Source: Acidobacteriota bacterium
GTDB lineage: Bacteria > Acidobacteriota > Blastocatellia > Pyrinomonadales > Pyrinomonadaceae
Direction: 5' to 3'
Length of the DNA stretch: 64,000 nucleotides
Assembly (NCBI GenBank): GCA_019639195.1
Contig: JAHBSI010000004.1
Coordinates: forward strand, 62,001-126,000
In this document: positions 34,292-62,013 of the stretch, piece after piece
Layout: every line of letters starts with the position of its first letter
How positions within the stretch are numbered: the stretch's first letter is position 1
Program-made: the position numbers and the translations under genes
Notes under the pieces: generated by a model
What the model was told of the DNA's origin: nothing
Databases searched by the model: none
What the model saw: only the letters and a program-made list of their open reading frames with translations

Positions 34292-35128
34292 ATGAGAATA
34301 AGAGTTCTAGTTTTGCTTTTCGCCGTTTTGTCGCTTTCAACTGCTGCTGCCTTCGGGCAGGAGGCCCAGCCGAGTCCAACGCCGACGCCCGCAGCTGACG
34401 AGCCGCCAAAGCCGATGCCGACACCGGACCTTAAGGCGATCTCAAACAAACCGGCCACCGCAGAACAGGTCGCGGAGACCGCGATCTTCATCTACGGCCT
34501 CGGCGGCGGAAGGCCGCGGCTCGATCAGATCCGCAAGACGACGATCGAAAAGGGCTTCACAAAGCACACGGATGCCGACGGCAAGGTCCAGCAGGGAGAT
34601 TATGAGACGTCCATCATTCGCGCCTCGGATCTTTACGCAGAAAAGATCCGTATGGACCGGAGCTTTGCGGATGCGAGATACTCTTTGATCTGGGCGGACG
34701 GCAAAACAACGGGCGTTTATAATACGACCTTTTTCACTCCGGACGATGCGGTCGTAAAGGGCTTCGAAGACGGTATCTTTCGCGGACTCGAAGGCCTGCT
34801 CCGATACAAGGAGAATGGCTCGACCCTTGAGCTCGCCGGCCGCGAAAAGGACCTCGGCGTCGAATTCTTCCTGATCGATGTCACTGACAAATCGAGCCGA
34901 AAAACGCGGTATTACGTCTCGGTGAAGTCCTTTCAGGTCAAGATGCTTACTTACGAACACAACGGCGTAAAATACAAGCGAAAATTCTACGATTACAACT
35001 ATGTGCAGGGAACTCTCGTTCCTTCGCACTCGGTTCTCTATGCTGATGGCAAGATGGTTGAGGACACTCAGATCAAGTCAATTTCGTTTGGTCAGCAGGT
35101 AAATTCGGACCTTTTTAGGACGAACTAA
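34292..35128 (+). CDS. Secreted protein, possible LolA/outer-membrane-lipoprotein-sorting fold
   Basis: The 278-residue protein has a signal peptide (VLVLLFAVLSLSTAAAFGQ) followed by a Pro-Thr-rich linker with PTPTPAADEPPKPMPTP. The rest is mixed helix and beta with repeated YENG/GDYET-like strands (SLIWADGKTTGVYNTTFF; RYYVSVKSFQVKMLTYEHNGVKYKRKFYDY), which recalls LolA/LolB-like antiparallel sheets, but no family signature can be claimed. The ATG at 34292 is chosen because it begins the signal peptide; TACAAT upstream may be its -10. Confidence 0.75.
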   Translation: MRIRVLVLLFAVLSLSTAAAFGQEAQPSPTPTPAADEPPKPMPTPDLKAISNKPATAEQVAETAIFIYGLGGGRPRLDQIRKTTIEKGFTKHTDADGKVQQGDYETSIIRASDLYAEKIRMDRSFADARYSLIWADGKTTGVYNTTFFTPDDAVVKGFEDGIFRGLEGLLRYKENGSTLELAGREKDLGVEFFLIDVTDKSSRKTRYYVSVKSFQVKMLTYEHNGVKYKRKFYDYNYVQGTLVPSHSVLYADGKMVEDTQIKSISFGQQVNSDLFRTN

Positions 35129-35218
35129 CCAAAACTTTTTGCAACCTTCATCTTAGTTCGTCGTGAGCATTGGCAGTCGGCGGCCGAGCCTTCGGCTGTT
35201 TCCGACCAAGGAGGAACA

Positions 35219-35806
35219 ATGCACGTCAGAACATCCCTTTTTCGCGCGTTCGCTGCTTTAGCCGGGACTCTCCTGATCGCTGCTGCTGGTTTTGCGCAGC
35301 AGACATCCGAGAAACCTCGAGAGAGTTTTAATTTTGTAATGCAATTTGTCGAAGCCGGAGCTGCGGGCAGCAATCTCGGCGAGCCGGCAGATGGTTGGAA
35401 GAAGATCGAGAAGCAGCTTCCAAACGACCTGCGGCCTTCGGCTTTCAGGAAAGTTGGAGAGTTTTGGGCGAGAGGCGCCATGGGCGGCGGACTTTCTTTC
35501 TCCGGCATCTGGTCGGATGCTTCTGCAGATACGAACCTGGTTGGTGCAGGCGTAAACTGGGCTTTCGATGGTCTTGGAGGCGACGGTGACAAGGTCGTAG
35601 CAAACGAATTCAAAATGAACCTTGTTTTGCCCGCCGGAATGTTCAAATTGCCCTTGGGTGCGCCGACACCGGAGCGTTGGCTTTCATTCTCGACGAGAGA
35701 ACTCGCCGTCGACAGAAACGTGCCGACATTGCTTACGACATTCGATCTGCCCGGCACACGCAGAAAGATCTTCGTCGTGCTGATCGCGACGCCGGTTGCG
35801 AATTAG
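35219..35806 (+). CDS. Secreted hypothetical protein
   Basis: The 195-residue protein starts at an ATG with a strong AAGGAGG site and has a signal peptide (AFAALAGTLLIAAAGFAQQ). The mature part has ARGAMGGGLSFSGIWSDAS and a region of alternating polar and hydrophobic residues, consistent with a beta-rich extracytoplasmic protein. No known domain was recognised. An antisense frame at 35125-35757 is long but lacks a ribosome-binding site and is rejected. Confidence 0.75.
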   Translation: MHVRTSLFRAFAALAGTLLIAAAGFAQQTSEKPRESFNFVMQFVEAGAAGSNLGEPADGWKKIEKQLPNDLRPSAFRKVGEFWARGAMGGGLSFSGIWSDASADTNLVGAGVNWAFDGLGGDGDKVVANEFKMNLVLPAGMFKLPLGAPTPERWLSFSTRELAVDRNVPTLLTTFDLPGTRRKIFVVLIATPVAN

Positions 35807-35960
35807 CGATATTTTGCAGAGTTTCCGCAACAAAGCGGCGGCCCGGGCGTGAGTTCTTTTGGCACGCCGCTTTTGTTCAAGTGGCAGATGGCTTAAATTG
35901 TATGGATGCAGGGCACACGACGCGTTTCATTTCCCGACAAAGGAGGGCTGTACCTTCCAG

Positions 35961-36548
35961 ATGCCTGAGGAGAAGCGTTCGGACCACGAGCTCATCGATG
36001 CCACAAAAAATGGTGACGAGTCAGCGTTCACGGAGATCGTTGCGCGGTATAAAAGCCCGATCACGAACTATCTGTACCGCTTTCTCAATAACTATGAGGA
36101 TGCCGTCGATCTCGCACAGGAGACTTTTGTCCGAGTGTATTTCGCGATCGACCGGTACCATACTCAATTCGCTTTCTCTACCTATATCTATCGGATCGCA
36201 ACAAATCTTGCGATCAGCGAGATAAGGCGGCGAAAACGACGCCGACTGTTCTCGATCTCGGGGATCCTGGCCGGTGACAAGGACGAAGCGACCGAGTTCG
36301 AGATCCCGGATGAGAGATCGCTTCCGGAGACCGAGCTCCTTGATAGTGAGAGAGATAGGCAGATCGCAAAAGCGATCGCAGCGCTGCCGGAAAAGTATCG
36401 AATCCCGATAATTCTTCGTGATGTTCAGGGACGATCGTATGAGGAAGTTTCGGCGGTGATGGACCTTGGATTGGGAACAACAAAGTCGCGTATCAGCCGC
36501 GGTCGAGCACTTTTGAAAGAGAAGCTGCAGGATTATTTGCAGAAGTAA
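35961..36548 (+). CDS. ECF RNA polymerase sigma factor
   Basis: The 195-residue protein has region 2 (AVDLAQETFVRVYFAIDRY and TYIYRIATNLAISEIRRRKRRR, which binds core and the -10) and region 4 (AIAALPEKYRIPIILRDVQGRSYEEVSAVMDLGLGTTKSRISRGRALL, which binds the -35). It is of the RpoE-like ECF type. AGGAGGG lies 13 bases before the ATG. The next gene starts 6 bases later and encodes a membrane protein that is probably its anti-sigma factor. The signal sensed is unknown. Confidence 0.95.
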   Translation: MPEEKRSDHELIDATKNGDESAFTEIVARYKSPITNYLYRFLNNYEDAVDLAQETFVRVYFAIDRYHTQFAFSTYIYRIATNLAISEIRRRKRRRLFSISGILAGDKDEATEFEIPDERSLPETELLDSERDRQIAKAIAALPEKYRIPIILRDVQGRSYEEVSAVMDLGLGTTKSRISRGRALLKEKLQDYLQK

Positions 36549-36553
36549 CAGCA

Positions 36554-37360
36554 ATGGTTAATAGGGCCAACAACACAGATCTTGAGTTTGAAGACACTGA
36601 GCTTGCGGATTTGCTTGGGGCGTTGCCGCAGGTCTCTGCACCGAATGACTTTGAGTTTCGCGTCTCGGCTCGGATCGCATCTGCTCATTCTGCCGCGAAG
36701 CCGCGAGGTCTGTTCGGTGCTCTGCGAATCGCGGTTCCGGCTGCCGCATTGCTGGCCGTTACTGCGACCGCTCTTTTTTTGAATCCTTACTGGGGCACTA
36801 CTGAGCCCGTTTCTACTCCCGCCGAAGTCGCGGTCGTCGGGCGACCCGCAGAGAACCCGGCATCGATCCCGCAACGGGAAACGACTGACATTCCGGCAAC
36901 GACCTTCGCGTCGAACGGACCTGCGTTAGAACCGGCAAAGCGAATGCCGTTGAACGATCAGCTCGCTTCTGCACGATCTAGCGGACCGTCGAATGACGAT
37001 CCTGCGGGCACGTCGTTCGTCGAATCCGGCACTCAGGGTGAAAAGATATATCCGCGTGGGATCAACCCGAATGTTGATTCACAGCCGACATCGCCAAATG
37101 CAAGACAGGCGGGGATCGCGATCCGCGATGTCCTATCACAGCTTGGTATCTCGTTCACGCCGACGGCAAATGGCCTTCGGATCAATTCCATCGCCGCTAA
37201 CAGCCTTGCGGCCCGCTCAGGCTTGAATGCGGAGGACGTTATCGAATCTCTCAATGGTCAGCGAGTTTCGGCGGACACGATGCTCTACGGAGCTTTCACG
37301 GCACGCCGTATCGTTGTTCACCGCGACGGAAAAACGATCGAACTCAGCCTAGGCCGGTAA
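36554..37360 (+). CDS. Putative membrane anti-sigma factor with C-terminal PDZ domain
   Basis: The 268-residue protein has a cytoplasmic N terminus of about 57 residues (EFEDTELADLLGALPQVSAPNDFEFRVSARI), one transmembrane helix at residues 58-76, an 80-residue Pro/Ser/Thr-rich linker and a C-terminal PDZ-like domain (about 185-268: LRINSIAANSLAARSGLNAEDVIESLNGQRV). Its place directly after the ECF sigma gene suggests it holds the sigma factor at the membrane. It lacks the HxxxCxxC zinc motif of many anti-sigma factors. A PDZ normally belongs to the protease that cuts anti-sigmas, so its presence here is unusual. Confidence 0.75.
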   Translation: MVNRANNTDLEFEDTELADLLGALPQVSAPNDFEFRVSARIASAHSAAKPRGLFGALRIAVPAAALLAVTATALFLNPYWGTTEPVSTPAEVAVVGRPAENPASIPQRETTDIPATTFASNGPALEPAKRMPLNDQLASARSSGPSNDDPAGTSFVESGTQGEKIYPRGINPNVDSQPTSPNARQAGIAIRDVLSQLGISFTPTANGLRINSIAANSLAARSGLNAEDVIESLNGQRVSADTMLYGAFTARRIVVHRDGKTIELSLGR

Positions 37361-61999: not shown

Positions 62000-62013
62000 T
62001 TTTTTGACCGGCC

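Follow-up and report, generated by a model that had tools for sequence, protein, structure and literature searches.

Membrane anti-sigma factors and bacterial PDZ proteins

Class I anti-sigma factors (ASDI with or without zinc, including RseA, RskA and RsiW) contain an N-terminal cytoplasmic domain and a membrane helix, and are encoded behind the gene of an ECF sigma factor. According to the available part of the survey of these domains, the majority of predicted contacts to sigma region 2 are made by helix 4, helix 1, which is typical of the complete domain, contacts sigma region 4, and zinc is absent in about 44% of them (PMC7406223). A comparable circuit is RpoE-RseA-RseB of E. coli, which works with DegS and RseP and of which RseB is the third part, as described in the accessible sections of PMC8103513. 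In the portion of PMC6411480 that is available, 93% of microbial PDZ proteins fall into 12 families and 7% are unclassified; eight of the families are those with proteases, the others being Fe-S oxidoreductases, GspC, haem-uptake proteins and ComP-type histidine kinases, and anti-sigma factors are none of the 12. GspC/EpsC of type II secretion comprises a short cytoplasmic N terminus, one membrane helix and a C-terminal PDZ domain, the function of which is called unknown in the introduction of PMC12369372. ComP-type sensor kinases are signalling proteins that carry a PDZ domain but no protease domain, and they have been reported in Acidobacteria (PMC6411480, same portion). No PDZ-bearing anti-sigma factor was found in the titles, abstracts and passages of the open-licence literature searched.

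The window analysed here (64,000 nucleotides, positions 62,001 to 126,000 of contig JAHBSI010000004.1 in assembly GCA_019639195.1) belongs to a 3.2 Mb genome in 7 contigs from an Acidobacteriota bacterium of the family Pyrinomonadaceae. It encodes an ECF sigma factor, P0001, followed by P0002, a predicted membrane anti-sigma factor ending in a PDZ domain (Table 1). P0002 shares the general layout of the class I anti-sigma factors, and its descent from them is shown by zinc-bearing relatives, but the first half of the domain is gone and the periplasmic part is a PDZ domain. The locus has in common with the E. coli circuit, as far as the cited sections describe it, an RpoE/SigW-like sigma factor, PDZ and LolA-type folds nearby, and, elsewhere in the genome, an RseP and a DegS-like protease; unlike there, the PDZ domain lies within the partner itself and seems to lack helix alpha-B, and the LolA-fold neighbour is closer to LolA-type, DUF1329 and LolB proteins than to RseB. 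P0002 resembles GspC/EpsC in outline, but gives no match to the GspC HR domain at E up to 1, scores only 17.3 bits against a cut-off of 150 with the NCBIfam model GspC_delta across its PDZ domain, and is encoded behind a sigma factor. The ComP-type proteins are histidine kinases, whereas P0002 is a predicted anti-sigma factor.

Table 1. Features of the sigma/anti-sigma locus, with positions in the window.
Feature	Position	Strand	Basis
Predicted LolA-fold protein, conserved neighbour of the sigma factor	34292..35128	+	Orthologues; structure model
Second promoter-like site of the same pattern, 5' of the 195-aa gene	35141..35165	+	Sites similarly placed relative to the sigma promoter in G003, G014, G018 and G022
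195-aa protein with signal-peptide-like start	35219..35806	+	Matches neither Pfam nor NCBIfam models
Promoter-like site GCAAC-N16-CGTG, 5' of the sigma/anti-sigma operon	35827..35851	+	Like sites in genus loci
ECF sigma factor P0001, 195 aa	35961..36548	+	Pfam Sigma70_r2 and Sigma70_r4_2 above cut-off
Predicted membrane anti-sigma factor with C-terminal PDZ domain, P0002, 268 aa	36554..37360	+	Pfam; structure model; conservation; zinc finger and PDZ intermediates
Cytoplasmic head, aa 1-52, putative class I anti-sigma remnant	36554..36709	+	Alignment to zinc-bearing relatives; weak NCBIfam matches
Membrane helix, aa 53-75	36710..36778	+	Model helix; hydrophobic by eye
Pro/Ala/Ser-rich periplasmic linker, aa 76-187	36779..37114	+	Composition; mostly low pLDDT
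PDZ domain, aa 188-268, no alpha-B in the model	37115..37357	+	Pfam; structure model; fold and profile matches

The sigma factor and its membrane partner

The sequence-only reading of 35961-37360 had described an ECF sigma factor with a PDZ-bearing membrane partner, and both the Pfam matches and the structure model agree with it; the coordinates of the two genes are correct. P0001 matches Sigma70_r2 with 65.9 bits and Sigma70_r4_2 with 52.9 bits, and fits the definition of an ECF sigma factor, namely region 2 plus region 4 within about 200 amino acids. The closest NCBIfam models are SigW and RpoE, each under its equivalog cut-off. P0001 is 91% identical to its counterparts from Pyrinomonadaceae bacterium Bin_6R and Acidobacteria bacterium SZAS-14. 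By eye, an in-frame ATGGC is present in several relatives some 60 nt 5' of the position of the ATG in the window, where the corresponding triplet (within 35859-35960) reads AGG.

The P0002 gene starts 5 nt after the sigma gene in a different frame. The order proposed for the partner from the letters alone (short head, one membrane helix, Pro/Ser-rich linker, PDZ domain) is what the model contains, with helices at residues 8-22 and 33-45 in the head and 53-75 in the membrane and the PDZ domain at 188-268, the linker being rich in alanine as well (14% Pro, 12% Ala and 10% Ser). The model was built on 11 sequences and its block pLDDT is 83-93 for the PDZ domain and 56-72 for head plus membrane helix, the head alone having 56-65. 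PDZ_2 (PF13180), the cut-off of which is 27 bits, scores 28.5 bits on P0002 and 30.8 bits when the whole genome is scanned, and Pfam matches no trypsin-like protease domain in P0002. Between the membrane helix and the C terminus, mostly just N-terminal of the PDZ domain, the genus proteins contain a GGS/GTS motif (23/30) and a P-x-G motif (24/30). The zinc motif of common anti-sigma factors was rightly said to be missing, as P0002 has no cysteine and HxxxCxxC occurs in none of the 30 genus partner proteins.

The head of P0002 gives no Pfam anti-sigma match at E up to 1, and the NCBIfam anti-sigma models match weakly, under cut-off, beginning at profile positions 38-40. P0002 aligns to the region after the zinc motif of its relatives, so that the N-terminal half of the domain is absent; a complete class I domain with helix 1 was not found, the model having two head helices. 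The aligned segment would correspond to the end of helix 3 and to helix 4. P0002 can thus be predicted to belong to class I from its head homology, its membrane helix and its gene position, as a derived variant and not a typical member, since the first half of the domain is absent.

The PDZ domain and its apparently missing helix

The PDZ domain of P0002 is supported as one of the HtrA/DegS type. The best sequence match of the family profile is PDZ1 of DegP (61.5 bits), followed by DegQ, an Aquifex site-2 protease and, lower, RseP. Foldseek leads from the PDZ model to HtrA proteins, and DegS with activating peptides is among the best structural matches (Z 10.3, rmsd 1.9 over 73 residues). The fold matches listed for the model of the PDZ domain include no GspC, which is no argument against a relation to GspC. 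The likeness to HtrA/DegP is incomplete, as P0002 has no protease domain and its PDZ domain has about 6 residues fewer at alpha-B.

Helix alpha-B forms one wall of the groove in peptide-binding PDZ domains. The model of P0002 has no helix at residues 238-252, where alpha-B is expected. Between D228 and R257, 40 of the 50 family members have a spacing of 29 residues and none of the 50 exceeds it, whereas the spacing is 35, 34 and 35 in three PDZ domains of two HtrA-like proteins from the same genome; these controls were aligned with a profile built from the partner family itself, and five further control domains aligned only partly, the comparison resting on the three that aligned through. Of four family distances below 26, that of L291 is cut by a contig end and that of L058 by local alignment, while L042 and L044, both from the genus, are truly short. 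In the last two the PDZ domain is trimmed further, and the strands around the absent alpha-B are linked by a short turn.

The same genome encodes a PDZ-bearing RseP-like protein (L307) and a DegS-like protein (L004) which comprises a protease domain, one PDZ domain and, by eye, an N-terminal hydrophobic stretch. With these two present, the PDZ domain of P0002 need not replace DegS, and as it seems to lack alpha-B it is more likely a docking or gating module than a DegS-like peptide pocket.

Conservation and origin of the pair

The same pair was sought in related genomes and is conserved. Of the 36 other genus genomes, 35 have a match to the partner with E no higher than 0.001, in G001 and G024 by fragments only; G006 has none. 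In the best 30 matching genus loci the sigma factor lies directly upstream in every case (62-100% identical), and the gap between the genes is -14 to +25 nt as measured with mechanically chosen start codons; four further genus loci agree with this arrangement, and a fifth ends before the sigma factor. By hand count, a family profile built from genus sequences detects both halves of the partner in at least 60 of the 119 genomes in the order (no more than 21 candidates scored per genome): at least 38 of 41 in the genus and at least 22 of 78 elsewhere in the family, the latter spread over at least 9 of 29 genera. In a sample of 396 genomes from the phylum, with no more than 6 candidates scored per genome, at least 23 have a match with E no higher than 1e-18, and these 23 all belong to the Pyrinomonadaceae. 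G134 has the sigma/PDZ pair on two contigs (L290 and L291), each time at the contig end.

Of the 22 labelled rows outside the clade of PDZ-bearing loci, 20 have the same sigma factor followed by a zinc-motif partner, the two zinc-less rows (L084 and L086) both being from other phyla; the partner in Pyrinomonas methylaliphatogenes, for example, has the zinc motif and no PDZ domain. Five relatives (L066, L067, L069, L070 and L284, the last from G074) contain the zinc motif and the PDZ domain together. Over the 72 labelled partners of this wider set, 45 have a PDZ domain without zinc motif, 5 both, 20 the zinc motif only (25/72 with zinc motif) and 2 neither, where the PDZ label was given by a profile from genus PDZ domains and the zinc label by searching the N-terminal 75 residues for the motif. 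In the tree of 73 sigma factors, the 50 PDZ rows and L068, which was kept unlabelled as its partner is cut off, form one clade with support 100/100, and the PDZ character changes once and the zinc motif five times. Loci on copies of the same contigs (L061-L064, L080, L076, L081, L289, L292, L295 and L296) were left out of the tree, as were L290 (a second copy from one genome), L049, L050, L059, L060 and, of the sigma relatives from titled records, every locus after L086.

The PDZ domain would thus have been gained once and the zinc motif lost several times, the number of losses being unsure because the branching order inside the PDZ clade is resolved only in part. With one change of the PDZ domain on the tree, five of the zinc motif and five relatives that have both, the head of P0002 is, on this comparison, a worn-down class I anti-sigma domain from which the zinc-finger half has gone. 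Two further observations concern the relatives by eye: the zinc-motif anti-sigma factor at L052 1024-1938 apparently has three tandem head motifs, and many PDZ-less partners among L071-L083 and L299-L301 have in common a short C-terminal motif, ending in VSFGSQ or a similar sequence, where the PDZ domain would be.

Neighbouring genes

The conserved neighbour of the sigma factor is a predicted LolA-fold protein, the model of which (pLDDT 83) matches the LolA-type structure 3bk5 best, with Z 19.5 and rmsd 3.3 over 205 residues. Orthologues lie 5' of the sigma factor within the PDZ clade and, outside it, in L071, L072 and L074. RseB was considered as its identity; LolA-type, DUF1329 and LolB proteins fit far better, taking the top fold rows at Z 13-19, while RseB and MucB reach Z about 8, lower than many LolA and LolB rows. 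By analogy with RseB in E. coli, it may nevertheless be a third part of the circuit. The 195-aa protein encoded between it and the sigma factor evolves fast, being 23-32% identical in five close relatives, and is possibly co-regulated. In L061 and L062 it is 30-32% identical, as compared with 86-88% for the LolA-fold neighbour and 91% for the sigma factor.

Promoter pattern and predicted targets

All 30 genus loci have GCAAC, GGAAC or a near variant, a spacing of 16-17 and CGTG before the sigma gene, and 29 of them have the strict form G[CGA]AAC-N16-CGTG; the sigma operon is thus predicted to be autoregulated through its GCAAC-N16-CGTG site. The strict pattern also lies 76-102 nt before the secretin gene in 27 of 29 genomes (mononucleotide shuffles 3/1450, reversed pattern 0/29) and 51-59 nt before a pilin gene in 24 of 30 (mononucleotide shuffles 2/1500, reversed pattern 1/30), counts which are not independent trials because the genomes are related. 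L236, at a contig edge, was left out of the orthologue promoter count, and comparison of the orthologues by a matrix with mechanical starts gave 25/30 and 21/30. In the window's own clade (G000, G003, G014 and G022) the pilin site is missing. A stricter genus-wide pattern finds 99 sites in 41 genomes versus 40 for the reversed pattern; these include sites upstream of a secretin gene, a pilin gene, what by eye is a PilC/GspF-like gene, and the small gene next to the sigma factor. A looser pattern shows no excess in G000, the genome of the window, taken alone (29 versus 36 reversed), and it is the orthologue comparison only that was informative. From these sites we infer that the PDZ-paired sigma factor would read the secretin and pilin promoters.

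In 30 chosen genomes from other genera of the family, the secretin has the site in 10 of the 11 PDZ-bearing genomes that were resolved and in 7 of the 18 loci from PDZ-less genomes (the start of L337 is unresolved, G072 has no secretin match and G100 has two loci), so the promoter link does not need the PDZ domain. Sites of the GGAAC type precede the sigma gene in several PDZ-less relatives; the looser pattern was not found before the sigma gene in L068, L069, L070, L073, L076, L081, L085 and L086. Before the LolA-fold gene, 8 of 10 loci have no site and two have looser matches at inconsistent positions. The sigma promoter in the window also lies within a stem (35826-35885), the arms of which flank the -10 site and which is perhaps the terminator of the upstream gene. 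In 25 of the 30 loci at least 5 pairs span the -10 site. A role as terminator is nevertheless not established, since z is only -1.74 in the window and a T-rich tail occurs in just 13 of 30.

The secretin of G000 scores 137.5 bits with the GspD model and 94.8 bits with PilQ, each under cut-off. Within the same region (L220 7383-14103, G000:C4) it is followed by two genes with the pilin-type methylation motif, a second ECF sigma factor and, by eye, an HxxxCxxC gene and a bactofilin-like membrane protein. The secretin itself contains a cohesin-like domain above the Pfam cut-off. In many genomes the second ECF sigma factor (39% identical) is encoded some 2 kb downstream of the secretin, and by hand count it was found in 40 of 41 genus genomes. 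G012, G015 and G062 do not have it in this place and yet retain the secretin site; no strict CGTG site occurs in the 400 nt before it in these three genomes, G062 having GGAAC-N17-CGTA.

Proposed mechanism and alternative explanations

The pair is best read as an autoregulated ECF sigma factor with a membrane anti-sigma factor, the PDZ domain of which docks to or gates an envelope signal, release coming by proteolysis and the sigma factor transcribing its own, secretin and pilin genes; we hold this to be somewhat probable as a whole. P0002 probably holds the sigma factor in check, as suggested by its kinship and gene order, and sigma binding, proteolysis and signal are steps that we infer. The shortened class I head would keep the helix expected to clamp sigma region 2, so that the sigma factor is held at the membrane, and the HtrA-type PDZ domain with the linker would dock to, or be masked by, an envelope partner. 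The signal would perhaps be the state of the pilus/secretin machine or outer-membrane transport, possibly with participation of the LolA-fold protein. A changed contact of the PDZ domain would expose the anti-sigma factor to site-1 and site-2 proteolysis by the DegS-like protease and RseP, and the freed sigma factor would transcribe its own operon, the secretin operon and, in most of the genus, the pilin gene.

The sequence-only reading had gone further in proposing that the PDZ domain could sense the unfolded C termini of outer-membrane proteins directly, in the manner of DegS; on this view binding itself would free the sigma factor. Its sigma/anti-sigma-like pair with a periplasmic PDZ domain is supported, and its DegS-like C-terminus sensing is not supported. 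DegS with activating peptides among the best structural matches would suit such a sensor, as would a LolA-fold neighbour, RseB sharing the LolA fold; yet the model is without alpha-B and the segment is at least 5-6 residues short in 50/50 members, for which reason DegS-like capture is not supported, and the genome has a DegS-like protease and RseP anyway. Binding of C-terminal peptides in the DegS manner is therefore unlikely as judged from the model, and the direct sensor as a whole is very unlikely. The PDZ domain may instead sense nothing and be a shield which blocks intramembrane cleavage until a site-1 protease removes it. The encoded PDZ-bearing RseP and DegS-like protease would fit this, and the long low-confidence linker between membrane helix and PDZ domain would suit cleavage; a plain bulky domain, however, is not expected to stay recognisable as a PDZ domain throughout the 50 rows of a single clade, and we consider a mere shield unlikely. 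Quite unlikely, too, is a role of the anti-sigma factor as GspC-like watchman over a type IV filament machine, where the groove-less PDZ domain and the conserved linker motifs would touch either the secretin or the pilus platform and failed assembly or engagement of the machine would free the sigma factor for more secretin and pilin.

Two other explanations concern the partner and the targets. Were P0002 a co-transcribed envelope protein and not an anti-sigma factor, the silence of the Pfam anti-sigma models would be accounted for, but the relatives which combine the same head motif with a zinc finger and a PDZ domain, and the weak NCBIfam anti-sigma matches, make this highly improbable. The secretin and pilin sites, on the other hand, may belong mainly to the other ECF sigma factor, the PDZ pair controlling only itself and its neighbours. 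ECF sigma factors often have similar promoters, and the second one is nearly universal in the genus and lies about 2 kb behind the secretin in most listed cases; against it, G012, G015 and G062 keep the secretin site though the second sigma factor is not behind the secretin, and lack a strict site before that factor. This division of targets is possible, though we regard it as doubtful, and transcription of the secretin and pilin genes by the PDZ-paired sigma factor is retained in the preferred mechanism.

Significance

We rate the predicted PDZ-bearing anti-sigma factor as a novel form of class I membrane anti-sigma factor. Membrane anti-sigma factors vary above all in their sensor end, and here a sensor can be traced through evolution, with the PDZ domain in one clade, the zinc finger present or absent and relatives having both. 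The predicted link to secretin and pilin offers a testable function, and the absent alpha-B asks what purpose such a PDZ domain serves. If the watchman reading were true, it would amount to an ECF feedback loop inside the pilus/secretin system, with the PDZ domain as a sensor of machine state and not a peptide pocket. The location of the PDZ domain beyond the inner membrane, together with a promoter pattern recurring at pilus and secretion genes, points to a new kind of surface sensor in this family.
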